DNA of 64,000 nt from Oscillospiraceae bacterium (GTDB lineage Bacteria > Bacillota > Clostridia > Oscillospirales > Ruminococcaceae), in contig JAFTTH010000002.1 in assembly GCA_017466885.1 (NCBI GenBank), positions 186,001-250,000 on the forward strand, given 5' to 3'. Made by a program: the position numbers and the translations under genes. Shown here in pieces: positions 41,043-64,000 of this stretch (its first letter is position 1; every line of letters starts with the position of its first letter). The notes below the pieces were generated by a model. The model saw only the letters and a program-made list of their open reading frames with translations. It ran no database searches and had not been told where the DNA came from.

Positions 41043-41837
41043 TTACATCGTAGGAATCATGCCTTCTCCTTCATCGGTTTCCTCGCCCGAATCTTCCTGA
41101 CTCTCGGCGATTTTTTCCTGAACCTCTGCCCACTTCTCTCGGCTGATCAGCGGTTCACTTGTCGAAGGAGTTGACTCTGTTACATTGCAGACGTTTACAT
41201 GTTTTCTTGCTTGAACAAGAGCATTATGTCGTTGCTTGTTGATTAGTGCCTCATACTCTACAGGCCATTTTTCTTTGACCTCGCTCTCGATCATACTTGT
41301 AATTTCATCGAGACTCATTGAGTGATTGAGTTTCCAAAAATAACTTTGTCTTGCAAAGCAGTATTTCACGACATCCATTTCAGACTCGTTCACTACCAAC
41401 CCATCATCCGTTCTGTCATATCCGAACACCAATTCTTCATCAGTATCGGCGTAGACATCTTCAGACTCTACGCTGCCCAAGTATGCTTCTACCAATTTTG
41501 CCGGATTTATCACAACATCGTGTGAACCGTCAAGTGTTTCGAGACCAACCCCCGATTCATAGAAAAGTTTTGCAAGTTCTCCAACTTCATCGAGAGTACC
41601 AGTGACTCTGTTGGTCGACTGCATTACGATTTTTTCAACGCCATTGGTTTTGGCATTTTGAAGCAACTTCATGAGCATTGGGAAGCCAAACTTTTTATCG
41701 CCTATTACATCGGCGTGGTCGACTACTTCATATCCTTTAGACTCACAATAATCTTGTAACTTCTTCTTTTGATTATAAGCTGCTATTTGAGCAGTATCAA
41801 AATTACTTACTCTTACGAATGTTGCAACCTTCTTCAT
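41043..41837 (-). CDS. Short divergent serine-recombinase homologue
   Basis: 264 residues. The N-terminus has the resolvase fold signature KVATFVRVSNFDTAQ with the catalytic serine in RVS, and KIVMQSTNRVTGTLDE where active enzymes read SVSRFARN, so the second active-site arginine is replaced. A recombinase-domain remnant (SREKWAEVQEKI) follows, but the DNA-binding zinc ribbon is absent, and the C-terminus is acidic (EDSGEETDEGEG). It may assist or regulate a full recombinase rather than cut DNA alone. Last gene of the unit starting at 43455. Confidence 0.72.
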   Translation of the reverse strand: MKKVATFVRVSNFDTAQIAAYNQKKKLQDYCESKGYEVVDHADVIGDKKFGFPMLMKLLQNAKTNGVEKIVMQSTNRVTGTLDEVGELAKLFYESGVGLETLDGSHDVVINPAKLVEAYLGSVESEDVYADTDEELVFGYDRTDDGLVVNESEMDVVKYCFARQSYFWKLNHSMSLDEITSMIESEVKEKWPVEYEALINKQRHNALVQARKHVNVCNVTESTPSTSEPLISREKWAEVQEKIAESQEDSGEETDEGEGMIPTM

Positions 41838-46803: not shown

Positions 46804-47454
46804 TCACTCCACATCTTCCCATCCCATCATTTTTTCAAACAATTTTCTGTTCTGTTCTTTTGAAACTTCTTCAATAAAGTAGTGTATAAGGCTTTGTGCA
46901 TCGCAACCGTAATCACGGGCAACTCTTTCTGCCTTTTCATACAGCTTATTGTCAAGCAAGACCGGAACTGCTGAGATTTCTCTATTGATTTGGGTTGCAT
47001 CATAGAAATGTCCGCGCAGTTTTCTTTCTGCCTTTTTAAGATTGTTTTTGTGTTCCTCCATCACTGCAAAGAATTGAAACTGCATTTCTCTTTCCTTGTC
47101 AGAAGATGAAATCTGTTCATACAGAAAATACAGGTCGCAGTCATAGGTGCTGCGCATATCCCTGAAAAGTTCGACAATGTCAACAATCCCCTTTGTGACC
47201 ATTTGCACTGCCGGAACAACTATCGTATCAACGATATCGTTTTCGCAGATTTTGAGAAGTCTTTGCCATCCTTCTCGTTGTTTGTAGTAAATATCCGGTG
47301 CAGACCTGTCCACAATAACGTCCACAACCTCCAATGCAGGTCTATTCGGCGTTTCTCGTAATGCCTCGATAAAGAACTTTTGCATGTGTTCATCGGTAAC
47401 ATTGTCCGGACTGTTGAAACAATTTAGGTTTGCGTAACAAATTACACGTTTCAT
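46804..47454 (-). CDS. Degenerate serine-recombinase-like protein (no catalytic serine)
   Basis: 216 residues with the resolvase-domain layout: RVICYANLNCFNS where active proteins have a YxRVS motif, VDRSAPDIYYKQREGWQRLLKIC, DTIVVPAVQMVTKGIVDIVELF, and a later QFQFFAVMEEHKNNLKKAERKLRG matching the long helix region. The serine and both arginines are lost. A regulatory or structural role is more likely than DNA cleavage. Operon member. Confidence 0.65.
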   Translation of the reverse strand: MKRVICYANLNCFNSPDNVTDEHMQKFFIEALRETPNRPALEVVDVIVDRSAPDIYYKQREGWQRLLKICENDIVDTIVVPAVQMVTKGIVDIVELFRDMRSTYDCDLYFLYEQISSSDKEREMQFQFFAVMEEHKNNLKKAERKLRGHFYDATQINREISAVPVLLDNKLYEKAERVARDYGCDAQSLIHYFIEEVSKEQNRKLFEKMMGWEDVE

Positions 47455-48732: not shown

Positions 48733-49434
48733 TTACATCTCCGAGTAAAACTCTTTCATGTCATCCAACCGTAAACATGCAAGCCTACCGTAATCATAAC
48801 CGCAACCGCAGTCAATACCGATAGCGTTATCTCCTTTCCAAATGCGCATGGGTTCTGCATTTTGGAAATGATTTGTCGGTGTGTGCCCGAAGACCAACAC
48901 AAAACCTTCGGGAATATGATGGCACTCGTTCCATCTCTCCCATACTGCGAATTCTTTTTCGTTTTCATATTCATAGCTGTACGCATACAAACTCATAAAG
49001 TTCTCTATGGGCGAAGCATGAACGAGCTTGTAATTGATGCCGTTCACCTGAACGTCTATATTGATCGGCAACTGTCTGATGAATCGAAATACATCCGCGC
49101 GGTATTCCTTCTTGATATGCTTCAGATATTCGTGTGTTACCATGCCGCCGTTTCTGTACCAAAGTCTTCTTTCTCTCCAGTTGGTGTTTTCCTTTTCATC
49201 GGCAGCATCTTTGCAATGCCCTATAGCTCTCAGCATCATATATTCGTGGTTGCCGATGAGCATTTTCACATTGGGCATCCTCATTATTTGTCTTAAAATC
49301 TTAACTCCGTGCGGATACCTGTCCACCACATCTCCAAGGATATATAATGTATCATCCGGTTGGAGATTAATTTGATTCATTATCGACTCAAATCTCCGCA
49401 GGTTTCCGTGGATGTCGGATAATACATAAGTCAT
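48733..49434 (-). CDS. Calcineurin-like metallophosphoesterase 1 (PrpE/PP1-like)
   Basis: 233 residues. Metal-site motifs in order: LSDIHGN, LGDVVDRYP, IGNHEYM, LVHASP and FGHTP, the classic PPP/PrpE layout. Such enzymes dephosphorylate proteins, dinucleoside polyphosphates or RNA ends; the choice cannot be read here. First of three related but distinct phosphoesterases in the operon. Confidence 0.88.
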   Translation of the reverse strand: MTYVLSDIHGNLRRFESIMNQINLQPDDTLYILGDVVDRYPHGVKILRQIMRMPNVKMLIGNHEYMMLRAIGHCKDAADEKENTNWRERRLWYRNGGMVTHEYLKHIKKEYRADVFRFIRQLPINIDVQVNGINYKLVHASPIENFMSLYAYSYEYENEKEFAVWERWNECHHIPEGFVLVFGHTPTNHFQNAEPMRIWKGDNAIGIDCGCGYDYGRLACLRLDDMKEFYSEM

Positions 49435-49437
49435 CTT

Positions 49438-49818
49438 TTACATCTCACTTTGTTCTGTATTTTGCTCTATTCTTTTTAGCAGTCTTTGATACTGCCAATT
49501 GATTCGTGTCAGTCTATCCCAAGACATTCGGTCGGAACAATAGAACACGTCGCCAATCAACTGCCGACAGACTTCGCTGTCCGATTCGGCGTTATCTTCA
49601 TCCGTTAACCACATTTTCTTCCAATTGCCCTGTCCGAGCGTATCGCATAACCATAGAGCCTGTTTGCGATTTAAGTTGAAATTGTACTTACATAAAGCAG
49701 GACAGACTGTTTCTCGGTATTCTTCCGCAATGGCTTTCATCGTATCAGTGTCTTTGTCCAACTCACTGTATTTGTGATAAAAGCTATTGATTATGGCATA
49801 ATACTTCTTTTCTCTCAC
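49438..49818 (-). CDS. Unknown helical protein
   Basis: 126 residues, helical and charged, with RKQALWLCDTLGQGNWKKMWL and a C-terminal WQYQRLLKRIEQN. Its ATG overlaps the stop of 49815-50531 by four bases, so the two are translationally coupled. No family recognised. Confidence 0.55.
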   Translation of the reverse strand: MREKKYYAIINSFYHKYSELDKDTDTMKAIAEEYRETVCPALCKYNFNLNRKQALWLCDTLGQGNWKKMWLTDEDNAESDSEVCRQLIGDVFYCSDRMSWDRLTRINWQYQRLLKRIEQNTEQSEM

Positions 49819-50531
49819 TTGGTTTCACCTTTGAGCCACTTATCATCGGCAAGCTGCGGATGCTTTTCTTTCAGCACCTCACGCAAGGATTTATACAGTT
49901 CGTAAAACCTACTATCGTCACCGTAGTCCATAAGCAGATATTTGAAATCCTCGATTCCCTCAATATCGGTTATGTACCCTTTCTCAATTTCTTTGATAGT
50001 CTGTTCGACCAATTTATAGGTTTCTTCTTTTTTATCCTTTAACCTGTCCATTAAAAGACGAATACTGACACACTGCTTATAGTATTCCTCTACATCAATG
50101 CACGCTCTGTATTTGTCAATCTGAATCTTGACATCCATTTGGAGTTCAATCCACTCTTTATGGTACCTGTGAATTTCACCGTAAGGATCGAGATACATGC
50201 TTATATCATGGTCAATGGTAATTAATGTTTTTATATCAAGCATTTCCATCGCATCTTTAATAAAACCAATGACATAACACGACTGTTTTTCATCATTGAT
50301 TAATGCATTGATAACCGCACCATTGATTACTCTGTTGAGGTTATTGCTTGCGAACTTTTCAAACCATTCAGACGGACAGAGCACCAAATCATCCTTACCT
50401 TCATCGGTTATGATAATACCGACATTATCACGTGATACGGTTTCCAACCATTCATCTAATTTATCGCAGAATTCCTTTCGGGATACTCGCTGCATCGTAT
50501 CAGTCGGTTGCAACTCTATAACGTGTTTCAT
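49815..50531 (-). CDS. Unknown protein with Phd/YefM-like N-terminus
   Basis: 238 residues. The first 60 residues (MQRVSRKEFCDKLDEWLETV, then GIIITDEGKDDLVLCP) recall the beta-alpha-beta fold of Phd/YefM antitoxins, which bind DNA as dimers; the remaining 180 residues are helical (KKEETYKLVEQTIKEIEKGY). The likeness is weak. Coupled to the gene downstream. Confidence 0.5.
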   Translation of the reverse strand: MKHVIELQPTDTMQRVSRKEFCDKLDEWLETVSRDNVGIIITDEGKDDLVLCPSEWFEKFASNNLNRVINGAVINALINDEKQSCYVIGFIKDAMEMLDIKTLITIDHDISMYLDPYGEIHRYHKEWIELQMDVKIQIDKYRACIDVEEYYKQCVSIRLLMDRLKDKKEETYKLVEQTIKEIEKGYITDIEGIEDFKYLLMDYGDDSRFYELYKSLREVLKEKHPQLADDKWLKGETK

Positions 50532-50542
50532 CTAATCTCTCC

Positions 50543-50800
50543 TTAGAACAAGTTCCACCAGTAATCGTAAACCTTTCGGTATGATCCGTGTTGGAGTTGT
50601 TCGTGTTTATTCCTTCGTACCTTGCGGCTCGCTTGTTTCCTAAAATAACGACTTAGTGATGTATTACCTCTTGGATAGTAGCGGATGTAAATACCCTTCT
50701 TTTCGTCATACCAAACTCCGCGACCGTAGGTGTTCTTGGTTTGCATGTACACCTTTTTCAATCGGCGGTTTCTTTCTCTGCTTTGTTTGTAACCCATCAC
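50543..50800 (-). CDS. Small strongly basic protein
   Basis: 85 residues rich in Arg, Lys and Tyr (GYKQSRERNRRLKKVYMQT, YFRKQASRKVRRNKHEQL), suggesting nucleic-acid binding. Proteins of this look occur on clostridial mobile elements, from memory. Eleven-base gaps on both sides support operon membership. Confidence 0.6.
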   Translation of the reverse strand: MMGYKQSRERNRRLKKVYMQTKNTYGRGVWYDEKKGIYIRYYPRGNTSLSRYFRKQASRKVRRNKHEQLQHGSYRKVYDYWWNLF

Positions 50801-50811
50801 CCAAGCCTCCT

Positions 50812-51441
50812 TTATCCGTTACCGTACACCTCGTTAATAACCGGCTCAAAGTTTATCTTGGTTTCGTCAAACATATCTTCACATGCTTGGGCGAACTCTT
50901 TGTATTCTTCGTTCACGACAAAGAACCGGCATTTATTCCAGTCGCCGTCAAGATCGAGCATGTGTGGAAATCCCCAAAAGCATTCTTGCCGTCTACTCCA
51001 TTTATTCGTGAATGGTGAATAGTCGCTCAAAGACCTGAAAGACGGTCTGATAGCTCTGTATATCTTACTTCCAATCTGAAACAGTTTTACTTCTACGATA
51101 ATCTGTGTTGCTCTCATCTTCACAGGCCAACGCCAAGTATTGAGATGTGTCCATATTCTGCGGTTCATTCTAAAAGTAGTTGAACCTCGCACACGTACAG
51201 GAGTCAGTAGTTTCACATCCTGATGTGCAACCTTGTGTGTTACCTTTTTATCGCCTTCAAGGAACTTATAAAAACCTTCTATTGTGTCCTTGTGAGCTTC
51301 TGCGGTTTCTGGATCCTTTTCAAGCAACCGTATGAAATGCCCTATTTCTTCAAGTGTTCCGAAATACATTTTGCCGAAGGATGTAAACTGTGCGGCAGCA
51401 TAGTCATCGAGGTGCATTACATAATATTTTTCTTTACTCAT
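50812..51441 (-). CDS. Unknown protein
   Basis: 209 residues; N-terminal KYYVMHLDDYAAAQFTSF, a basic middle (GSTTFRMNRRIWTHLNTWRW) and acidic end. Its ATG overlaps the stop of the phosphoesterase upstream by eight bases. No family recognised. Confidence 0.55.
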   Translation of the reverse strand: MSKEKYYVMHLDDYAAAQFTSFGKMYFGTLEEIGHFIRLLEKDPETAEAHKDTIEGFYKFLEGDKKVTHKVAHQDVKLLTPVRVRGSTTFRMNRRIWTHLNTWRWPVKMRATQIIVEVKLFQIGSKIYRAIRPSFRSLSDYSPFTNKWSRRQECFWGFPHMLDLDGDWNKCRFFVVNEEYKEFAQACEDMFDETKINFEPVINEVYGNG

Positions 51442-52138
51442 CGCATTTCACCTCTTTCAGCATTTCAAATGTTCTAAAGAGGAAATGCATCTTATCTATA
51501 TGCTTGTCTGTATGCCAATGACCGCAATACCAATCTTTATAGTCCACAGCTTCTTCTATCTTGTCGAGCCATAGTTCTGTAGATTCATCTACTGTGCTTT
51601 GGTCCAGACCGGGTATAAACATTTCAGTCGGTCTATACTTATAGGGACAAGTGTGAGACAGTATGATATCTATGCCACCTTTGGCTATAACGTCCTCCAC
51701 CTTGCGTTTTGTCTGCTCGGACGGTTGTTCATCTGCCCACCATCCAAAGCCTCGTTCAAGGCGGTAAAACTTGTCCACACTGTATGCACCGCCGATGGCA
51801 AGCGCTTTGTAACCTTCAAGATCGTACACCTCGCCGTCTTCTGCGAATAGGATGTTGGGATAGTCATCGCTTACAAGGACACGGCCGCCGTTCCATAGCT
51901 TCGGCTTATAGCCTGCTATCTTCTCCGGTCGCATTTCGTGGTTTCCGTGTATGCATAAGAAGGTCGGAGGGTAGTTACTCAATATATTTTTTAGAAAATT
52001 ATCTTTCTTGTTTCCGTAATAATTGGCACCGACATCACCGAGTAGGACAATGGTGTCCTTTTCGGTCAGCTTCACTTTTTCTAAGAATAACTGTATCTGT
52101 GTCGGATTACCGTGTATATCACCCGTTAGGAATATCAC
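51434..52138 (-). CDS. Calcineurin-like metallophosphoesterase 2
   Basis: 234 residues with TGDIHGN, LLGDVGANYYG, HGNHEMRP, LSHTCP and CGHWHTD, a full set of metal ligands. It differs in loop lengths from the other two phosphoesterases, so the three are not recent duplicates. The ATG overlaps the stop of gene 3 by 20 bases, a strong sign of coupled translation. Confidence 0.87.
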   Translation of the reverse strand: MIFLTGDIHGNPTQIQLFLEKVKLTEKDTIVLLGDVGANYYGNKKDNFLKNILSNYPPTFLCIHGNHEMRPEKIAGYKPKLWNGGRVLVSDDYPNILFAEDGEVYDLEGYKALAIGGAYSVDKFYRLERGFGWWADEQPSEQTKRKVEDVIAKGGIDIILSHTCPYKYRPTEMFIPGLDQSTVDESTELWLDKIEEAVDYKDWYCGHWHTDKHIDKMHFLFRTFEMLKEVKCDE

Positions 52139-52718
52139 TTTCTATCATCTCTTTTCTCTTTTTTTCAAATTCGGGGAAATCATAAGCTGCGAGAAGTTCA
52201 TCGAGGGTTCTCGGTGTGTAATTCATATATGTCATCATGACACCGACATTAATAATTTTGCACGGGATACCATCATCCCACAGTTCTTGTTTCCATTTTT
52301 CGACATACTTCCATTCTCTTGTGTTATGGACATGACCGTAAAGCATTATCGCACCGTAGTGCTGTGCGTTATAAAACAGCATCGGATAATGACTCATAAC
52401 GACACGTCTGCCGTTATCCACGATTTCTTCGTATTTGAGGATCTCATCATAGTGAAATCGCAGTTTGCCATGTACTCGGTCGTGGTTACCTTGGATAAGG
52501 ATCTTCTTTCCGTTCAGCCGTTTGATGATATTCACGCTGCCTTCTTCGTTCTTCCAAAAGCAGTCGCCGAGAATATATACCGTGTCTTCCTCGGTGACTC
52601 GCTCGTTCCAGTTGTGGATGAGGACTTCGTCCATCAGCGTTGTATCGGCAAACGGTCTGTTGTCAAACCGAATTACATTCTTATGCCCAAAATGGTTATC
52701 TGAAATATAATAAATCAA
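52119..52718 (-). CDS. Calcineurin-like metallophosphoesterase 3
   Basis: 199 residues with SDNHFGHKN, LGDCFW, QGNHDR, MSHYP and YGHVHN. This SDxHFGHKN-type subgroup is common in phages and mobile elements. First gene of the leftward operon; a GGAAGGAG ribosome site precedes the ATG. The promoter and four phased repeats lie just upstream. Confidence 0.87.
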   Translation of the reverse strand: MIYYISDNHFGHKNVIRFDNRPFADTTLMDEVLIHNWNERVTEEDTVYILGDCFWKNEEGSVNIIKRLNGKKILIQGNHDRVHGKLRFHYDEILKYEEIVDNGRRVVMSHYPMLFYNAQHYGAIMLYGHVHNTREWKYVEKWKQELWDDGIPCKIINVGVMMTYMNYTPRTLDELLAAYDFPEFEKKRKEMIESDIPNG

Positions 52719-53338: not shown

Positions 53339-53484
53339 GGTTATAACCTCCTTTTTTTATAAATATTATAAAGCGGAGATTATAATATAGCGTTGTCTTT
53401 ATATCGTTTCTATAAAGAGGTCGCTATAATAATATAAGGTGTAGGCTATAATATAACCTATAGACGATATTGGGAGGTGAAGCA
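53339..53484. promoter_or_regulatory. Divergent control region with repeated TATAATATA
   Basis: Very AT-rich, with TATAATATAGCG and CGCTATAATAATATA facing each other, and GGCTATAATATAACC as a near-palindrome. Several overlapping -10-like TATAAT sequences serve both directions; -35 boxes are poor. This suits mutual control by the two XRE proteins. Confidence 0.5.
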
Positions 53485-55389: not shown

Positions 55390-55992
55390 ATGAACGAGTT
55401 AAGTATCACCTACAACAAAGAAGATATGGAGCTTCTTCGTTTTACACCACTGAGCATAGATGATGAGGCACGGCAGAAAAGAGCGAAGGCAATGGCGGCT
55501 CATTACAGCCATTCCATTGAAATCCCCAACCTCTACAAGCAAATGAGGGTTGCCGTGTATATCCGTTACTTCAACTCGGCAGATATCGAGGATTGGCTTG
55601 ATGCTATCAAGAAGTTCTACACAGACGGACTTGCTAACATCCCTGCTTGGACTTTCGTTGACTTCTACATTGACGAGGGGCCTTCTCCCAACAACATGGA
55701 GAACAACAAGGAATGGTGTCGCCTGTTGGACGATTGCTTTGCCGGTAAAGTCGATTTGATCATGACTCAGAAGACCACAGGCATTTCCAAGAACCCCACC
55801 GAAATCACTATGTGCGCTCGTATTCTCTCACAGCTTGAAAAACCTGTCGGGATTTACTTCGAGGCAGAGAACTTCTACACCTTGGCCTCCTACTATCTGT
55901 CCGATACTACGGATGACTATCTCCTTCCAAGTGCCGAGACTCTAAAGATTCTCGATGAGTCAAGCAATGAAAGGAGGCTTTTAGGTGAGTAA
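55390..55992 (+). CDS. Catalytically dead serine-recombinase domain protein
   Basis: 200 residues. It aligns with the N-terminal domain of the next gene: RVAVYIRYFNSADIEDWLDA against RIAVYVRVSTDS, VDLIMTQKTTGISKNPTEIT against IDIILTKSVSRFARNIVDC. The catalytic serine and both arginines of the SRFAR motif are replaced, so it should not cut DNA. It stops after the catalytic-domain fold, with no DNA-binding part. It overlaps the active recombinase gene by eight bases, so it may form mixed oligomers that set the direction or timing of recombination. GGAGG precedes the ATG. Confidence 0.75.
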   Translation: MNELSITYNKEDMELLRFTPLSIDDEARQKRAKAMAAHYSHSIEIPNLYKQMRVAVYIRYFNSADIEDWLDAIKKFYTDGLANIPAWTFVDFYIDEGPSPNNMENNKEWCRLLDDCFAGKVDLIMTQKTTGISKNPTEITMCARILSQLEKPVGIYFEAENFYTLASYYLSDTTDDYLLPSAETLKILDESSNERRLLGE

Positions 55993-57856
55993 CGAATATA
56001 CAAACCCAGCACAGAAACCCATGACCGAAACCGAAAGCCGTTACAGAGAAGTGCGCGACCTTTCCAAGCTGCGTATCATCCCTGCCAAAGAAAAAGAACC
56101 CGACTTTTACGATGATGAGGTTCACAAGAGAATTGCCGTCTATGTCCGTGTTTCCACTGACAGTGAAAAACAGACTTCTTCCTACGAGCTTCAAAAGAAA
56201 TACTACGAAGGCTATGTTCGTGAGCACGACAACTGGACTCTCGTCAAGATCTATGCAGATAAGGGTATCAGCGGTACTTCTCTCGAACATCGTGTGGAGT
56301 TCAACAAAATGATTGCCGACTGTAAAGCCGGTAAGATAGATATCATTCTTACTAAGAGTGTTTCTCGTTTTGCCCGTAACATCGTTGACTGTATTGGTAT
56401 TGCACGTGACCTCGCTGCTCTTTCTCCGGCTGTCGGCGTTTTCTTTGAGATGGAGCACATCTTCTCTCTGAACGAGGATTCACAGATGGCTCTCTCCTTC
56501 CAAGCGACTATCGCGCAGGAGGAATCTCATATCAAGAGCCGTAGCATGAACAAGTCCTATTTCATGCGATTCAGCAACGCCATTTTTTTGACTCCGAAGC
56601 TGCTCGGTTACAACAGCGTTAAGAAAGGCAAACTGACCATTAATGAGGAACAAGCGCCGACCGTCAAGCTCATTTTCTATATGTATCTCTGCGGTCATAG
56701 CACTACCGAGATTGCAGAGACATTGATGATGCTCGGCAAGAAAACGCTAAAAGGCAATACCAAATGGACGTCAAGCGGTATTACACAGATTCTTCGTAAC
56801 GAAAGGTACTGCGGTGATATTCTCACCAACAAGACCTACACACCGAGTTACTTAGACCACAAGGCTAAGAAGAACTACGGCAAGAAGCAACAGTTCTACT
56901 ATACCGATGACCACGATCCTATCATCCCAAGGGACGATTTCATTGCGGTTCAGCATATGCTCAACAACGCTCGGTACAGGAATACTTCTATTCTGCCGGA
57001 GCTTCGTGTCATTCCGGAAGGTCTGCTCAAAGGATTCGTTGTTATCAATCCGCGTTGGGCAGGTTTCAATGATAACGACTACCGACTTGCCTGTCAGAGT
57101 GTGTACGGGGACGAGCCGATTACCGAAGAGGCCAACAACTGCTCTATCTATGCTGCAGACGGCGACTTCGACATGCGCGGATTTGAAATCACACGGTCTG
57201 AGTTCTTTGATTCAGTCCAGCGACCGTTTGTCACCTTCCAAGACGGGCGTATCAAGTTCAGTATGAACTGCATCAAGAAGTTTGGTAAGCAGCAGTATAT
57301 TGAGATGCTTGTCCACCCTATTAAGAAGCAGTTCGCTGTTCGCATTACGAACAAGGAAAATCGCAACGCTGTCGTGTGGGCGAAATCTACCAGCGGTGTG
57401 TTTCATCCGAAGGATATTCCCACCACAGCGTTTACCAACACATTCTTTGCTCTTTTCTGTTGGGATTTGAATTATAAATACAGAGTCACAGGTTCTTTTT
57501 ATCAAAAGGACAAGGACTCGGTTTGTATTTTCGATTTGGCTGAAACCGAGGTGTTTCTCCCCACCCGCATTCTTGCGGATAGAACTGAGGAAGACGAAGA
57601 ATCATCCACACCGCTTATTCCGGGCAAAAACCATATCAAAGCAATGCCGGAGGATTGGCTTAAAACCTTCGGTCGTAAATATTATATTCAGAAACAAGCT
57701 GCCGACAAGGTCGAGTCAGCCGCTTGGGATATTCAAAATCAAGGCTCTGTGTACGATGAGGAAAACCAACTCAAAGTCAGTGATCCTGAGGTGCTCAGAG
57801 AATTTATCAATCAAGAATTAAGTAATGGTAATAAGGAGGCCGTTTCAAATGAGTGA
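55985..57856 (+). CDS. Large serine recombinase with unusual C-terminal domain
   Basis: 623 residues. Resolvase domain about 45-195 with catalytic Ser57 (YVRVST) and Arg128/Arg131 (SVSRFAR); recombinase domain about 200-330 (PKLLGYNSVKKGKLTINEEQ, SSGITQILRNERYCGD). The usual CxxC zinc ribbon is absent. Instead residues about 385-535 hold a domain (GFEITRSEFFDSVQRPFVTF, CIKKFGKQQYIEMLVHPI, NYKYRVTGSF, IFDLAETEVFL) that recurs in the next two genes. It is probably the element's integrase or invertase. It starts inside the dead-recombinase gene and ends eight bases inside the next gene. Confidence 0.87.
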   Translation: MSNEYTNPAQKPMTETESRYREVRDLSKLRIIPAKEKEPDFYDDEVHKRIAVYVRVSTDSEKQTSSYELQKKYYEGYVREHDNWTLVKIYADKGISGTSLEHRVEFNKMIADCKAGKIDIILTKSVSRFARNIVDCIGIARDLAALSPAVGVFFEMEHIFSLNEDSQMALSFQATIAQEESHIKSRSMNKSYFMRFSNAIFLTPKLLGYNSVKKGKLTINEEQAPTVKLIFYMYLCGHSTTEIAETLMMLGKKTLKGNTKWTSSGITQILRNERYCGDILTNKTYTPSYLDHKAKKNYGKKQQFYYTDDHDPIIPRDDFIAVQHMLNNARYRNTSILPELRVIPEGLLKGFVVINPRWAGFNDNDYRLACQSVYGDEPITEEANNCSIYAADGDFDMRGFEITRSEFFDSVQRPFVTFQDGRIKFSMNCIKKFGKQQYIEMLVHPIKKQFAVRITNKENRNAVVWAKSTSGVFHPKDIPTTAFTNTFFALFCWDLNYKYRVTGSFYQKDKDSVCIFDLAETEVFLPTRILADRTEEDEESSTPLIPGKNHIKAMPEDWLKTFGRKYYIQKQAADKVESAAWDIQNQGSVYDEENQLKVSDPEVLREFINQELSNGNKEAVSNE

Positions 57857-58592
57857 TGAATTAAATATGGGTGTCGATATTGCCCAACAAACTGTCTTGC
57901 CGGACGAGACCGGTGCTATCGCACTGACAGCAGACGATATTATTGAGCTGGAAGGTGATTTCAATTACGATGGATTCCAAGTTGTTCGCAGAGAGTTTTT
58001 CGCTCATACCTTCGAACCGTCTATTACTCTTAATAACTACAAGGTCTATGTTAATGCGGCGTGTCTGAACCGTTTCCCTGAGATCGAGCATGTTCAGCTT
58101 CTCATTAATAGCGAGACCAATATCATGGCACTTCGTCCGTGTGCGGAAACTGACCGAGACTCATTTGCTTGGTGCAGTAAAGGCACGGGCAGAAGAAAGC
58201 CAAAGCAGGTCACCTGCCGTTTATTCTTCGCTAAGCTGTTCACGATGATGAACTGGAATCCTGATTATAGATATAAACTGCTCGGTAAGATTGTCTGTGC
58301 AAACGGAATGTATCTTATCGTTTTTGACCTGTCTGCAACTGAGGTCTATCAGCGCACCTTCGTTGAAGGACAGAAGCCGAAGAACTCACGAGTTCCTGTC
58401 TTCCCTGCTGCATGGCAGAATCAGTTCGGTATGCCTTTCGAGGAACACCGCAAGTCATTGCAGATTAATACCTTTAACGGTTATGCCGTTTATGAAATTA
58501 AAGAGAAACAAGCACCCAAGCCTGACGGAGATTCCGCACAGGTTCAGCAGTTATCTCTTGACAATCCTACAGGTGAAGGAGTTGAGAGTTAA
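57849..58592 (+). CDS. Stand-alone copy of the recombinase C-terminal domain
   Basis: 247 residues from the ATG at 57849 (AAGGAGG nine bases upstream). Residues about 30-175 match the recombinase C-terminal domain: GFQVVRREFFAHTFEPSITL, CLNRFPEIEHVQLLINSETN, FAWCSKGTGRRKPKQVT, MNWNPDYRYKLLGKI, VFDLSATEVYQRT. No catalytic residues recognised. A role as accessory DNA- or protein-binding factor for recombination is the natural guess. Its stop overlaps the next ATG by one base (TAATG). Confidence 0.72.
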   Translation: MSDELNMGVDIAQQTVLPDETGAIALTADDIIELEGDFNYDGFQVVRREFFAHTFEPSITLNNYKVYVNAACLNRFPEIEHVQLLINSETNIMALRPCAETDRDSFAWCSKGTGRRKPKQVTCRLFFAKLFTMMNWNPDYRYKLLGKIVCANGMYLIVFDLSATEVYQRTFVEGQKPKNSRVPVFPAAWQNQFGMPFEEHRKSLQINTFNGYAVYEIKEKQAPKPDGDSAQVQQLSLDNPTGEGVES

Positions 58593-58951
58593 TGTTGTCC
58601 TCTAACATAGGGTTGTCCTTTAGTATCAAGCGTAATCAAATCCTCATTTACAAGCACGGATTGAAACAACTCGGCAACCCTGCCTACATTCAGTTGCTTT
58701 ACAATCCCACCGCACGTGCTTTTATTATTAAAAGCTGCGATCAGCACACACCCGATTATATTTATATCGGAAAGTATCTTATCAACAATCCGGGTGCTTC
58801 TGTCGTTCTGTACAGTAAGACCTTGATGCTGCGTATTTGCAGTTCTGTCGGCGGTGCTTTTGATAACATAGATTACTGCAAACTTGAGGGCGAGGTGCTT
58901 TCTGACGAGAACGCTCTCATATTCCCTTTGTCATCGCAAACAGGAGGTTAA
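58592..58951 (+). CDS. Short relative of the recombinase C-terminal domain
   Basis: 119 residues. KRNQILIYKHGLKQLGNPAY, IQLLYNPTARAFIIKSC, then FDNIDYCKLEGEV and NALIFPLS follow the same order as the middle and end of the preceding protein and the recombinase tail, with the first strand missing. It is thus a third, minimal version of the domain. Tight TAATG coupling upstream and a three-base gap to the ParB-like gene. Confidence 0.65.
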   Translation: MLSSNIGLSFSIKRNQILIYKHGLKQLGNPAYIQLLYNPTARAFIIKSCDQHTPDYIYIGKYLINNPGASVVLYSKTLMLRICSSVGGAFDNIDYCKLEGEVLSDENALIFPLSSQTGG

Positions 58952-58954
58952 TTC

Positions 58955-59920
58955 ATGGCGACCGTTGTACTGAAAATTGACGAGGATTTCAAAAACCTTA
59001 TCCGTCCTCTATCCCAAGATGAGTATCTTCAGCTTGAGGCAAATCTGCTTCTTGACGGTTGCCGTGAACCGATTACCACTTGGAACGGTATCATTGTGGA
59101 CGGACATAATCGCTACGAAATCTGCAAAAAACACAACATTCCTTTTGCCGTACAGCCGAAGGAATTTGACTGCCGTGAGGAAGTGATTGTTTGGATCTGT
59201 TCCAACCAACTCGGTCGCCGTAACATTTCCGATGAAACACGGAAGTATCTCATCGGCAAGAGGTATCAGAATGAGAAGATTATCGGCGGCAGAAATACAA
59301 CGGGCAGTAATCAATATACAGCCAATCATACCGATGAGGATGCAGAGATACCCAATGACGATAGGTTTCGTACTGCCACAAAACTTGCGGAGGAATATCA
59401 TCTCTCGCAGGTCACCGTTCAAAAATACGGCATGTACTCTCGCGCACTGGATGTTATCGGTGAAGTAGAACCTTCCCTTGTGCCGAGAATACTGTCCGGT
59501 TCAATTAAAATATCCCACGAGAACGTCGTGGCACTATCAAAATTAAATGATGATGAAATCAAAACATTTGGAGAAAAAATGAGAGAGAAAAATCAACCTT
59601 TCACACGTTTTTCGGGAGCAAGAGAAGACCTCCCCAATCGTTTCCGCAGACAAGCGCCTATTGTTCATACACCGCCTTCTTCCGAGGTGAACGCTCTGCC
59701 TGAAAACTCGGTCAAGACAATGCCTAAGTATGATCCCGATTCCGAGATTACCGGTCTGACTCTTACCATTCCGTCTTGGGTTAGTTCCATTGACCGTGCG
59801 AAAACAAAGGCGGATTTCAGTTCCACATCCAAACCTGCCAAGACCAAGCTTGTCGGTGCGTTAAAAGAGCTGCTTGGTATCATCATGGAACTGCTCACAA
59901 AAATCGAAGAGGAGGAATAA
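58955..59920 (+). CDS. ParB/Spo0J-type N-terminal domain protein
   Basis: 321 residues. The ParB/sulfiredoxin-fold core is visible (LEANLLLDGCREPITTWNG, IVDGHNRYEICKKHNIPF, VIVWICSNQLGRRNISDE), followed by a helix-turn-helix (TATKLAEEYHLSQVTVQKYG). The C-terminal third is low-complexity then helical and acidic. Such proteins segregate plasmids or regulate DNA transactions on mobile elements; no ParA is visible in the window. Two-base gap to the next gene. Confidence 0.82.
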   Translation: MATVVLKIDEDFKNLIRPLSQDEYLQLEANLLLDGCREPITTWNGIIVDGHNRYEICKKHNIPFAVQPKEFDCREEVIVWICSNQLGRRNISDETRKYLIGKRYQNEKIIGGRNTTGSNQYTANHTDEDAEIPNDDRFRTATKLAEEYHLSQVTVQKYGMYSRALDVIGEVEPSLVPRILSGSIKISHENVVALSKLNDDEIKTFGEKMREKNQPFTRFSGAREDLPNRFRRQAPIVHTPPSSEVNALPENSVKTMPKYDPDSEITGLTLTIPSWVSSIDRAKTKADFSSTSKPAKTKLVGALKELLGIIMELLTKIEEEE

Positions 59921-59922
59921 CA

Positions 59923-60864
59923 ATGGACGATTTACAACAAGCAAACGAATTAAACTTGGAGGAAGCGGAAGAGCATTTCGAGATGTTCGTTCCGAATGTA
60001 TCTTTTGAAAAAATACAGATTAAGAACCTTGTGTCCAGCCAAGATTATCAGCGTGGCATCTACATGAACCACGTCAAACGTGCCGTTGAGCATTTTGATG
60101 TTTACCAAATCAATCCCGTTAAGGTCAGCCGCCGAAACGGTATTAACTATGTTTTTAACGGTCAGCACACCATCGAGATGGTGGCACTCGCTTCGGGTTC
60201 CCGTGAGACTCCGGTTTGGTGTATGATCTACGATGACCTTTACTACGAACACGAGGCCGACATCTTTGCTAATCAGCAGAAGTTCGTCAAGAACCTTCAG
60301 CCGTATGAGATTTTTATTGCGAACGTGGAAGCCGGAAATCAGAAGCAACTGCTTATCAAAGACTTGGTGGAGTCCTACAATATGACCATCGGTGCGGTTA
60401 AGGGTGCCGGTGTTATCGGTGCGGTTGCATCCCTTGAGAATATCTTTGACAAGTACGGTTATCATGTTCTCGACCGTACCCTTCGCCTTTGCATTGCTAC
60501 TTGGGAGGGTGATGTTGACTCCTTCTCCGGCAACATGCTCAAAGGTATCGCAAGACTGGTTGCCTGTTACGGCGAAGCCATTGATGATGAGATATTCAAA
60601 GACAAGGTTGGTGCTTTGTCGGTTAAACAAATCGGTCGTAACGCCAAAGAACGCAGAGCCGGTTCTTTGGGTTATGCCGAGGCTTTATTTATTGCTTATA
60701 ATACCAAGTGCAAGAAGCCTTTACGCTTCACAAAACTCTATGAACGTATATCGCCTGTTGATAATATTGAGGACGATTTCGAGGAGTCTGATGAGGATAT
60801 GAGCGAAGGTTATGTTTCCCTTGAAACTATTTTAGCACAAACTGAAAACAACGCAGAGGACTAA
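59923..60864 (+). CDS. DUF6551-like ParB-fold protein
   Basis: 313 residues. DYQRGIYMNHVKRAVEHFDV, VSRRNGINYVFNGQHTIEMV and EADIFANQQKFVKNL follow the ParB-like nuclease-domain pattern seen in DUF6551 proteins of mobile elements. C-terminus is acidic. It closes the recombinase-ParB operon; the stop lies inside a terminator hairpin. Confidence 0.72.
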   Translation: MDDLQQANELNLEEAEEHFEMFVPNVSFEKIQIKNLVSSQDYQRGIYMNHVKRAVEHFDVYQINPVKVSRRNGINYVFNGQHTIEMVALASGSRETPVWCMIYDDLYYEHEADIFANQQKFVKNLQPYEIFIANVEAGNQKQLLIKDLVESYNMTIGAVKGAGVIGAVASLENIFDKYGYHVLDRTLRLCIATWEGDVDSFSGNMLKGIARLVACYGEAIDDEIFKDKVGALSVKQIGRNAKERRAGSLGYAEALFIAYNTKCKKPLRFTKLYERISPVDNIEDDFEESDEDMSEGYVSLETILAQTENNAED

Positions 60865-60881: not shown

Positions 60882-62525
60882 TTACAGCATTTCCTCAATT
60901 ACGTATCCACCGCCGAAGATGATATCCACCTTCTTGTTCTCGTAGATACGGATACACTCGATGGTTTGTCTTACGAGACCGTCATCGTACTTTGAGAAGT
61001 CGAGGTTCTCGTTATCGATGGCGTTTTGGATTTCTCGGATTCTCTCATCGGTGATTTCGTTGCCCATGCTCTGCTCTTGGAGGATTTTTATCTGCTCTTT
61101 GAGTTCGGCTATCTCATCGGATATCTGCTTGAACTCGTCTTCGCAGTCTTCCACATCTTGACCGTTGGCGATGCTCTCGGATACGATGTTCATCATCTTT
61201 TTATTAAGGGCATCCACTCTGCGTTCAAGATAGTCGATTTCGTTTCGTGTCGAGCTGCATCCCATTGCATCGGCAAGGGTGGCTTTGAGCAAGGCGATAT
61301 AGGTTTCGGAGTCTTCTTCGTAGAACTTGGCTATCGCTCTCATGATGGTAGCGTGCAGCACCGTTTCGTCTATGGTCGGTGAGTGCTTGCAGTATTTCTT
61401 GCCGTAGTCGAGTCGGCTTGTGCATCGCCATACCACCTTTTTCTGATCACCTCTCACCCACGTTACTCGTCTGTACACCGAACCGCATTCGGCACAGTGG
61501 ATGAGCTTGGTGAGGGCATACTTACTGTATTTGCCTTGCATAGTGGTGCTTACCTTACAGGAGGCAGGTTTCACCGCATTTCGTCTTGCCATTTCGGTCT
61601 GTGTCTTATTGAACACCTCTCTGCTGACTATCGGTGTGTGGTTATTGTGTACATAGTACATCGGCACTTCCGAGCCGTCATTCTTCACCACCGTCTTATT
61701 GATGCTGTCGATAGTGTATGTCTTCTGCAAGATAGCATCGCCACAGTATTTTTCATTCTTGAGGATATTCTGAATGGTTGCTCTCGGCCAATCGGTACTG
61801 CCCTGCCTTGTCTTATACCCTTCGGCTTTCAGTCGCTCTTTGATGGCAAGCACCGACATTCCTGAGAGATACCAGTCGAAGATTTTGACGATGATCTCAG
61901 CTTCGTGCGGAATGACTTCGGGTTCGCCGTCAGCACCTTTCTTGTAGCCGAGCAGTTTGGCGTAGTTAAATTTCACCTTACCTTCCTTGAAGTTGTTGCG
62001 GAATGTCCATGTAATGTTCTTGGACATGTTTTCCGATTCGCTTTGTGCGAAACCTGCGTATATGACAAGGTACAGTTCACTTTCGGTTTTGAGTGTGTCG
62101 ATATTCTGTTCTTCGAATATGACTCCGATGTTCTTTTCTTTCAGTAGTCGCACATATTGGAGGCAGTCTACCGTGTTTCGTGCGAATCGGGATACCGACT
62201 TTGTTATGATATAGTCGATCTTTCCGGCGAGGCAGTCTTTAATCATCTGATTAAAGTGTTCACGCTTTTTGACCTGCGTTCCTGAGATACCTTCATCGGC
62301 GTATATCCCTGCGAGTACCCACTCTTTATTTGCTGCTATCTTTTCGGTATAGGTTTTCTTCTGATTCTCGTATGACAGCAACTGTTCTTTAGAGTCGGTT
62401 GATACTCGACAGTAGGCTGCTACTCGCAGTTGGTTATATTTACTTCTATCTACAATGTTGACGCGCTTGGGTTCGATAACCGTAACCGTCTTCTTTGGTA
62501 TTTTGGTTACTACCACATCATCCAC
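60882..62525 (-). CDS. Serine recombinase with zinc ribbon
   Basis: 547 residues if the GTG at 62525 is used (a GTG at 62516 has better ribosome-site spacing). Resolvase domain with catalytic Ser42 (YCRVSTDSKEQ) and SVSRFARN; recombinase domain (KLLGYKKGADGEPEVIPHEA); zinc ribbon CAECGSVYRR...WRCTSRLDYGKKYC; then a coiled coil of about 100 residues (KEQIKILQEQS). A complete large serine integrase. It is the last of three overlapping recombinase genes read leftward. Confidence 0.9.
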   Translation of the reverse strand: MDDVVVTKIPKKTVTVIEPKRVNIVDRSKYNQLRVAAYCRVSTDSKEQLLSYENQKKTYTEKIAANKEWVLAGIYADEGISGTQVKKREHFNQMIKDCLAGKIDYIITKSVSRFARNTVDCLQYVRLLKEKNIGVIFEEQNIDTLKTESELYLVIYAGFAQSESENMSKNITWTFRNNFKEGKVKFNYAKLLGYKKGADGEPEVIPHEAEIIVKIFDWYLSGMSVLAIKERLKAEGYKTRQGSTDWPRATIQNILKNEKYCGDAILQKTYTIDSINKTVVKNDGSEVPMYYVHNNHTPIVSREVFNKTQTEMARRNAVKPASCKVSTTMQGKYSKYALTKLIHCAECGSVYRRVTWVRGDQKKVVWRCTSRLDYGKKYCKHSPTIDETVLHATIMRAIAKFYEEDSETYIALLKATLADAMGCSSTRNEIDYLERRVDALNKKMMNIVSESIANGQDVEDCEDEFKQISDEIAELKEQIKILQEQSMGNEITDERIREIQNAIDNENLDFSKYDDGLVRQTIECIRIYENKKVDIIFGGGYVIEEML

Positions 62526-63354
62526 CTTCCTTTATTTTTATATTTGACTTGGTTACGAGTTCGGCGGCGCCGTCCTCATAGAGTATGATTTTATCTACCG
62601 TCCTTTCGAGGAGTTGGGATAGGTTTTCCTTTCCTTCTCTTACGTTTGCTCGAATGCCGGGTATTGACTGAATGCCTTCGTACTGTATTTGTACCAGTTC
62701 GATGCACAGTTCTAAGGCTCTCTGAGCATTGACATTCGGTCTGTCGAGTTCATCTTCGAGTTCGCTTTTTATTTTCAGCGTATCCGAAGTGTCGGTTGTG
62801 GGCATCTTCCTTTCTTCCGGTGTGTAATCGTCTTCCACCATTCGCATGGTGAGGGTTTGCACCTTTTTCAGTATTACGGTATCTCGGATATGCACGTTGT
62901 TATCGCAGTCGGGATTGCTACAGTACCACCTTTCTTTGTACTTGCATTTTCTCTCCACTCTGCGTTTCATAACACATCCGCATTTCCCACAGACGATGTA
63001 TCCTTTCAGTACATGTATTTCCTGTTCCGTGTCAGCAGGTGTGGTTCTCTGCCTTGCCGTTTTTTGCCGTGCGGCTTCTGCGAACAGTCCTTCGTCTATG
63101 ATTTGTGGGAAGGTATCGTCACCGAGGTATTTTACATTGTCGAGGATCCTCATGACTCTCGCTTTATTCCACTCGGTTTTCTTTTCACTGTATACTACTT
63201 GCTGTGCGGTCAATCTGTCGGCGATGTCTTTCAGTGTGGCACCTGCGATATATGTTTCGAAGATATATCGTATTATCTTGGCCTCGCTCTGTTCTATGAC
63301 GATGTCGCCGTTTTCCATGGTGTATCCGTATGGGATATATCTGTTTTTTAGCAT
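62518..63354 (-). CDS. Recombinase lacking the catalytic domain (recombinase domain plus zinc ribbon)
   Basis: 278 residues from the ATG at 63352-63354 (GGTGG five bases upstream). It begins directly with the recombinase domain (NRYIPYGYTMENGDIVIEQS, ARVMRILDNVKYLGDD) and continues to a zinc ribbon (VCGKCGCVMKR...WYCSNPDCDN) and helical tail. The resolvase domain is missing without any sign of a frameshift remnant in front, since the upstream gene's end overlaps it by seven bases. Probably a DNA-binding accessory subunit; the gene trio is kept compact. Confidence 0.78.
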   Translation of the reverse strand: MLKNRYIPYGYTMENGDIVIEQSEAKIIRYIFETYIAGATLKDIADRLTAQQVVYSEKKTEWNKARVMRILDNVKYLGDDTFPQIIDEGLFAEAARQKTARQRTTPADTEQEIHVLKGYIVCGKCGCVMKRRVERKCKYKERWYCSNPDCDNNVHIRDTVILKKVQTLTMRMVEDDYTPEERKMPTTDTSDTLKIKSELEDELDRPNVNAQRALELCIELVQIQYEGIQSIPGIRANVREGKENLSQLLERTVDKIILYEDGAAELVTKSNIKIKEGG

Positions 63355-64000
63355 ACCTTCCACCTACACTTTTCTGTGAATTTCAGACCGCCGAGCAGGA
63401 CGAATGTTGCCATGTCGTTTTGGTCTATCTCCACCTTTCTTACTATGTTTTTGAATAACTCATCCGAGAAGTCGCTTAGCGGTTCTTTGACTTCTTTCAG
63501 CTCGATTTGGAGTTTCAACACATCCGCATGGGAGTCGCTGAGTACCGTGCTGAATGTTGCCAACCGTTTCTCTTTCAGTGCCGTGATTCTCTGCATGATT
63601 TCTCGGCTCTGTCGTTGGAAGGTGACGGTGTCGAGGTATCCTTTATCCTTGAGCTTACTTATCATCAGCAGTTTCTCATTGAGTTCACTGATTTCCTTAC
63701 TGCAATCATAGGATTCTTGGTTTCCTCTGCGTTGCATCGCCATTGCCTTTTCCAAGGTCCTGACCGCTAACTTCAGTACGTCTTCGCTTGCAAAGCACAG
63801 CTTGTTCACCATTGTGACGAAGGCGGTTTTGATATCGTCTTCTTCGAGGTAGTGTGTGGGACACCAGTCTTTGTCTTTCTGATGATTCGCACACACCCAA
63901 TTGATATGGTCTTTTCGTTTTCGGCGCACAAAAATTGCACCGCATTCACTGCAGTGCATAATTTTTGAGAATATATACTTTTCGGTCGGCAGGTCTTCAC
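63348..64000 (-). CDS. Serine recombinase C-terminal part, cut by the window end
   Basis: 217 codons visible; the frame is open to the window edge, so the N-terminus lies outside. The visible part begins with a zinc ribbon (YIFSKIMHCSECGAIFVRR, WVCANHQKDKDWC) followed by a coiled-coil region (SKEISELNEKLLMISKLKDK) and a strand-rich end (ATFVLLGGLKFTEKCRWK). It resembles the C-terminal half of large serine recombinases. The internal ATG at 63959 is not a credible start because the family pattern continues upstream. Confidence 0.82.
   Translation of the reverse strand, partial: EDLPTEKYIFSKIMHCSECGAIFVRRKRKDHINWVCANHQKDKDWCPTHYLEEDDIKTAFVTMVNKLCFASEDVLKLAVRTLEKAMAMQRRGNQESYDCSKEISELNEKLLMISKLKDKGYLDTVTFQRQSREIMQRITALKEKRLATFSTVLSDSHADVLKLQIELKEVKEPLSDFSDELFKNIVRKVEIDQNDMATFVLLGGLKFTEKCRWKVC

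Follow-up and report, generated by a model that had tools for sequence, protein, structure and literature searches.

A serine integrase is usually regarded as one protein, which requires no more than a single small factor to run in reverse, and the recombination directionality factors (RDFs) that act on such enzymes are usually small, integrase-binding proteins. In a characterized integrase the zinc ribbon and the coiled coil bind the outer half-site of the attachment (att) site and control synapsis (PMC3783163). The described system closest to the locus reported here is the streptococcal macrolide-resistance prophage phi1207.3 (Tn1207.3), through its genes orf2 and orf3; its authors suggest that two other genes, orf56 and orf57, perform integration (PMC4260502). 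The present locus is an operon in a 64,000-nucleotide stretch of DNA from an Oscillospiraceae bacterium (assembly GCA_017466885.1, contig JAFTTH010000002.1, forward-strand positions 186,001 to 250,000); this whole stretch is referred to as the window. The operon encodes a serine recombinase with a new C-terminal domain (SRctd, its domain being CTD1), two free-standing relatives of that domain (CTD2 and CTD3), and two ParB-like proteins (ParBa and ParBb). A preliminary description of the window proposed that the C-terminal domain of the recombinase reappears in the two proteins downstream, in shortened form in the second. The three open reading frames lie where that description placed them, and the genes overlap or abut: SRctd and CTD2 overlap (57856/57849), CTD2 and CTD3 are joined by TAATG at 58592, and the gap between CTD3 and ParBa is 3 bp. 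The repeated domain is confirmed by the analysis that follows.

CTD1 (SRctd residues ~369–566) matches CTD2 by BLASTP with an E-value of 6e-24 and 23% identity over 199 amino acids, and profile-profile comparison with hhalign gives a probability of 100% (E 7e-40). The motifs quoted in the preliminary description are found in both proteins, as the pairs GFEITRSEFF/GFQVVRREFF, CIKKFG/CLNRFP, NYKYRVTG/DYRYKLLG, and FDLAETEV/FDLSATEV. CTD3 lacks the GF..R.EFF segment and scores only marginally when sequences are compared singly (phmmer E ~0.001 against a database of three sequences), though its profile matches CTD1 at 98.2% (E 4e-14) and CTD2 at 98.7% (E 3e-16), and the CTD3 homologues of loci L041 and L050 match CTD2 directly (E ~1e-7). 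Profile comparison, a check of the kind that had been suggested for the three segments, relates all pairs at 98–100%. AlphaFold2 models CTD3 with a mean pLDDT of 89.8 and CTD1 with a pLDDT of ~90 for residues 411–520. The CTD3 model features strands 6–11 and 16–20, helix 21–26, strands 32–38 and 43–49, helix 76–90, and strands 95–103 and 108–112; the CTD1 model (residues 415–526) features strands 415–419 and 422–425, helix 427–433, strands 438–444 and 449–454, helix 484–490, and strands 498–508 and 511–526. Unrelated folds, which the preliminary description had named as the outcome that would speak against a shared domain, were looked for in these two of the three segments, and both are predicted to share the order beta-beta-alpha-beta-beta ... 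alpha-beta-beta. The explanation that three unrelated segments resemble each other by chance or through convergent composition can draw on the weak pairwise score of CTD3, which by itself would not refute it, but the profile comparison rules out chance similarity for CTD3. With the CTD1–CTD2 E-value, the hhalign probabilities of all pairs, the like predicted folds, and the conserved gene order described below, this explanation is exceedingly improbable.

As the preliminary description had supposed, the domain is new to the libraries searched: no entry in Pfam, PHROGs, PADLOC, or the PDB corresponds to the free-standing proteins CTD2 and CTD3. The CTD2 family (51 proteins) and the CTD3 family (59 proteins) gave no usable Pfam match and no PDB sequence match, the CTD2 family gave no match in PHROGs, and no mention of the domain was found in the open-licence literature searched. 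Foldseek comparison of the CTD3 model with the PDB returned nothing significant (best E 0.066) and no similar solved DNA-binding protein; sliding clamps recur in the list at TM-scores of ~0.2 and were not used as evidence. Among viral models, CTD3 matches uncharacterized phage proteins with no function given, such as Gp105 of Lactococcus phage KSY1 (E 4e-5, TM 0.66).

SRctd itself carries the Pfam domains Resolvase (PF00239, E 1.7e-22) and Recombinase (PF07508, E 1.5e-22), and all 55 homologues keep Ser57, Arg55, Lys124, Arg128, and Arg131. The claim that the recombinase has no zinc ribbon holds: Pfam PF13408 does not match, and no paired cysteine columns are found at residues 325–623 across the 55 homologues. 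The AlphaFold2 model of residues 331–623 shows no long helix pair, its confidence being low outside the CTD core. The top Foldseek matches of SRctd are serine integrase complexes, with alignments of at most ~340–390 columns. Judged by sequence, the CTD stands in the place of the zinc ribbon, and probably also of the coiled coil, that bind the att half-site.

The arrangement is conserved well beyond the window. Scanning viral contigs by alignment yielded 115 relatives, of which 80 were kept, and loci from 13 genome contigs were added; 77 loci, in which the recombinase is full-length and at least 3.5 kb of downstream sequence is available, were testable. The recombinase, CTD2, and CTD3 genes occur in this order in all 77, mostly overlapping or within 10 bp. 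ParBa is also found in every one (as a 70-aa fragment in L114), and ParBb, and with it the complete ParB-like pair, in 75. Three genomes of the family of G311 (L233, L237, L238) have the triplet beside an AAA ATPase gene and without the ParB genes, and the triplet is therefore considered the core of the operon. In a tree of 165 CTD cores CTD1, CTD2, and CTD3 form three exact clades (support 0.96, 0.91, and 1.0), so that the duplications are old. CTD3 is strongly basic, with a median pI of 9.1, whereas CTD1 and CTD2 are acidic (~5.4). Both the exact clades and this difference in charge make it unlikely that the three copies are interchangeable. The preliminary description had the domain used both in cis and as separate proteins within one coupled operon; this is observed in every testable locus, and the generality of the arrangement exceeds what had been claimed for it.

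Additional conserved partners flank the triplet. The 200-aa protein encoded upstream of SRctd is a recombinase N-terminal domain with 34% identity to SRctd (E 2e-19), and 33 of 69 loci, about half, have such a domain upstream of the recombinase. Across this family Phe stands in the position of the catalytic Ser (YVRVSTD to YIRYFNQ), and SRFARN has lost its Arg pair (SNVSKx). Downstream, ParBb keeps the conserved FNGQHTIE motif. One phage fusion of a ParB fold to DUF6551 bound CTP in vitro, and another bound ATP (PMC12704722). No ParA gene beside the operon was annotated or seen on inspection of the ORFs, and no search aimed at ParA was made.

The best phage matches outside the gut lineage are phi1207.3 and its relatives, and these reveal a split form of the recombinase. 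phi1207.3 orf2 encodes a 370-aa recombinase without a zinc ribbon that stops where the CTD would begin (recombinase HMM E 1e-110). The next gene, orf3 (138 aa; L268 2025–2441), is annotated as hypothetical and matches the CTD core HMM with an E-value of 1e-20, and the CTD3, CTD2, and CTD1 profiles with 5e-15, 5e-12, and 7e-11. By these matches orf3 is a free-standing copy of the recombinase CTD that was not previously recognized as such. The phages phi-SsuNJ5_rum and phi-SsuHCJ31_comEC and Oscillospiraceae phage PV036431 have pairs of the same type, and 20 phage records contain CTD proteins related to orf3, with the recombinase adjacent wherever both coordinates were given. The CTD is thus probably a detachable subunit that became fused in the gut lineage. 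The free-standing form may be ancestral and the fusion derived, because orf2 and its relatives carry no CTD of their own and the gene that comes next encodes the CTD as a separate protein.

The split form also bears on the possibility that the free CTDs are RDFs or inhibitors, which would bind the cis CTD and switch between integration and excision or silence SRctd in the prophage, and would not be required for recognizing the site. The small size of CTD3 and the presence of all parts in one operon beside helix-turn-helix (HTH) regulators would fit such a role, but an RDF does not usually show homology to a domain of the integrase on which it acts, and both paralogues are constant companions of SRctd. 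Additionally, phi1207.3 has no cis CTD, so that its single free CTD cannot merely modulate a fused one. An RDF or inhibitor role is for these reasons considered unlikely.

The operon is found in 17 named gut-phage records of Lachnospiraceae and Oscillospirales. Two of these records were checked and assign their phages to 'Ca. Heliusvirales'; PMC9226167, the first description of this group, does not discuss the operon. Genomes with the operon make up 13 of 298 and 21 of 397 in two sampled bacterial families (about 4–5%). In the window the operon adjoins lysogeny-type genes, and only lysogeny-side genes match phages PV036458 and PV036436. Three metallophosphoesterase-like genes lie close together at 48733–52718 (starting at 48733, 51434, and 52119), and homologues of those at 48733 and 51434 stand beside the repressor region of PV036458. 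No terminase, portal, or capsid gene was matched by BLASTP in 160–324.5 kb of the contig, and the window copy is therefore placed in a remnant or a non-phage element.

Insertions with the module have been delimited at several loci. At L050 the insertion measures 5.2 kb, consists of an HTH gene and the five operon genes, and lies with rpsF on one side and a small chromosomal gene on the other; relatives have the empty site. L043 is an 8.2-kb insertion with an empty site in L193. The whole 101-kb contig of L049 has no other serine recombinase, and the flanks that were read have no other integrase. L044 and L049 were not counted as evidence of stand-alone mobility, being parts of larger islands. 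The starts of IMG/VR contigs ~1.62 kb upstream of SRctd were considered as an att site and rejected, as these ends fall at gene boundaries and are probably due to software trimming.

A second group of insertions lies in comEC. The prophage of G304 sits in this gene, and its junctions share only a 2-bp CC overlap; this CC core belongs to a prophage that bears the module and in which an LSR (large serine recombinase) pair is present too. The G304 junction is on the recombinase's own side and not by the LSR pair. The att junctions of the comEC prophages of G298 and G304 are 2.8–4.1 kb upstream of the recombinase 5' end, and that of phi-SsuHCJ31_comEC is ~0.9 kb upstream. Fragments of comEC also flank the module in G815, G625, and PV036436. 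These junctions were not accepted as proof that SRctd is the integrase, as the comEC prophages also carry the LSR pair and the breakpoints, to judge from how long the comEC pieces are, appear not to coincide in streptococcal and clostridial phages. These prophages target comEC repeatedly (L141 ~7761, L142 ~15245, G304), and contig G298 has two prophages in tandem. The module is also carried by islands in cpaF of three genomes (L240, L242, L235, L247, L251). These islands were rejected as cargo-free elements, as they extend further and carry Tn554-like tyrosine recombinases, with genes for TnpA, TnpB, and TnpC in two of them (L247, L251). A small gene family with the motif KANIWNxYSYxRxKIE adjoins the host junction both in a comEC prophage (L142 14716–15090) and in the cpaF islands (L242 7377–7685).

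These results are best brought together, with a slight preference over the alternatives as a whole, by an operon that encodes a multi-subunit LSR whose zinc ribbon and coiled coil have given way to CTD proteins. SRctd would contribute the catalytic serine together with the DNA-binding domain usual for recombinases, and the CTD would take over from the zinc ribbon and coiled coil the reading of the outer att half-site and the choice of the sites that synapse. One CTD would act in cis, while CTD2 and the basic CTD3 would join in trans and bind the outer arms of the recombination site, SRctd, or both, so that only the mixed complex would make the recombinase active and directional. Further regulatory or clamp subunits would be the two ParB-fold proteins and, in loci that have it, the dead catalytic domain. 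A clamp controlled by nucleoside triphosphate (NTP) may come from the ParB-fold proteins, a proposal made because the DUF6551 fusions bound CTP or ATP (PMC12704722) and because FNGQHTIE is kept here. The complex would probably serve to integrate and excise the phage or islet in which the operon resides. We infer in this way complex formation, DNA binding by the CTDs, the role in directionality, the integration reaction, and the att sites. Target recognition or subunit contact, as put forward in the preliminary description, would be the likeliest role of the CTD.

Integration is the weakest step of this multi-subunit proposal, because most carriers have a second recombination system. Several observations weigh against the proposal. 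A convergent conventional LSR gene or pair lies within 6 kb of the operon in 35 of 52 loci, and Tn554-like tyrosine recombinases are present in the cpaF islands of G656 and G663; in such carriers the integrase may be something other than SRctd. CTD1 and CTD2 are acidic proteins, and among solved structures no DNA-binding protein resembles the CTD fold. The same second systems would be expected if the module were a companion of mobile elements that, for example, controls, resolves, or inverts element DNA or competes with other elements, with integration left to the LSR pair or to tyrosine recombinases. Such a companion would agree with the coexistence of the LSR pair in most phages, with TnpABC in the cpaF islands, with parAB genes on a 58-kb contig (L234), and with the suggestion made for orf56/orf57 of phi1207.3 (PMC4260502). 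It is less easily reconciled with the L050 islet, which has no other recombinase in or beside it, with L049, or with the comEC att junctions, which lie on the recombinase 5' side in both streptococcal and clostridial phages. The companion role is rated as rather doubtful, and the multi-subunit recombinase is retained as the preferred reading. A more far-reaching version is improbable as a whole: serine recombinases of a new, heteromeric class, with exchangeable CTD subunits that recognize sites, a catalytically dead recombinase subunit that makes the tetramer asymmetric, NTP-driven ParB-type clamps for loading or gating the complex, and an operon that suffices to move a 5-kb cargo-free element.

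The features of the window are collected in Table 1. The short recombinase between the convergent LSR genes has, by its Pfam domain content, the mirror image of the split described for the CTD, and genes of ~280–300 aa like it lie between two LSR genes in L039, L061, L062, L105, L106, and L115. Two small recombinase-like genes are found to the left of the operon; the product of 46804–47454 (216 aa) weakly matches the recombinase N-terminal domain (E 7e-7), and that of 41043–41837 (264 aa) was called recombinase-like by eye only. A search for an invertible segment or inverted repeats around the operon gave weak matches only, and PADLOC, a resource for anti-phage defence, gave no useful match for six window proteins (best E 0.062).

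Table 1. Positions of the operon, its domains, and neighbouring features, in window coordinates.
Feature	Coordinates	Strand	Basis or remark
Three ~21-bp direct repeats between divergent HTH genes, possible operators	53362..53455	.	repeat search
Catalytically dead serine recombinase N-terminal domain, 200 aa	55390..55992	+	paralogue of SRctd
SRctd, serine recombinase bearing the new C-terminal domain (CTD1)	55985..57856	+	623 aa, GTG start
SRctd catalytic (resolvase) domain, aa 50–188	56132..56548	+	PF00239
SRctd Recombinase (DNA-binding) domain, aa 221–327	56645..56965	+	PF07508
CTD1 core, aa 408–530 of SRctd, in place of zinc ribbon and probably coiled coil (judged by sequence)	57206..57574	+	BLASTP, hhalign, AlphaFold2
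CTD2, free-standing paralogue of the SRctd CTD, 247 aa	57849..58592 (alternative start 57825)	+	BLASTP, hhalign
CTD3, shorter basic free-standing paralogue, 119 aa	58592..58951	+	hhalign, AlphaFold2, pI
ParBa, ParB-like protein	58955..59920	+	PHROG ParB-like partition protein, 1.5e-5
ParBb, DUF6551/ParB-fold protein	59923..60864	+	Pfam DUF6551, 4.6e-30
Conventional LSR with zinc ribbon, convergent	60882..62525	-	Pfam Resolvase, Recombinase, Zn_ribbon_recom
Short recombinase with DNA-binding domain and zinc ribbon, without catalytic domain	62518..63363	-	Pfam Recombinase and Zn_ribbon only
Third convergent LSR gene, running past the window end (to window coordinate 64934)	63348..64000	-	

In the gut-phage lineage, and by homology in the streptococcal macrolide-resistance prophage, the site-reading part of a serine recombinase appears to have been split off as a separate, duplicated subunit. 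If this is true, the operon would be a natural split of catalysis from target recognition, it would provide a function for the unannotated orf3 in a medically relevant element, and it would be an anchor for annotating many hypothetical phage proteins.

The operon is a variant of the LSRs with a partial precedent hidden in phi1207.3. SRctd has the catalytic and recombinase domains in common with phiC31 integrase, the A118/LI integrase, and TnpX, as determined by Pfam and Foldseek. Unlike these LSRs, it has no zinc ribbon and, in a low-confidence model, no coiled coil, and it features another C-terminal domain with free-standing paralogues. CcrA and CcrB of SCCmec are similar in that recombination uses more than one recombinase gene, and SRctd is distantly similar to CcrB (100.7 bits against NCBIfam model NF047343, cut-off 900); however, CcrA and CcrB are both catalytic, whereas the extra subunits here have no catalytic domain. 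The cyanobacterial XisF-XisH-XisI system is alike in pairing a serine recombinase with two small accessory proteins. SRctd matches XisF poorly (36 bits, cut-off 375), and neither XisH nor XisI is known to be copied from a domain of XisF. The operon's last two genes resemble the ParB-CTPase fold and DUF6551 proteins, for which a linkage to serine recombinases is not mentioned in the paper that describes them (PMC12704722). The closest system remains orf2-orf3 of phi1207.3, together with phi-m46.1, phi-SsuNJ5_rum, and phi-SsuHCJ31_comEC. It has in common with the window a recombinase without a zinc ribbon followed by a CTD protein, a conventional LSR pair in the same prophage, and comEC among its targets. 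It differs in that its CTD is unfused and present as one free copy instead of two, and no ParBa, ParBb, or dead domain is among the annotated genes beside orf2-orf3, whereas the window has the CTD fused to the recombinase as well.

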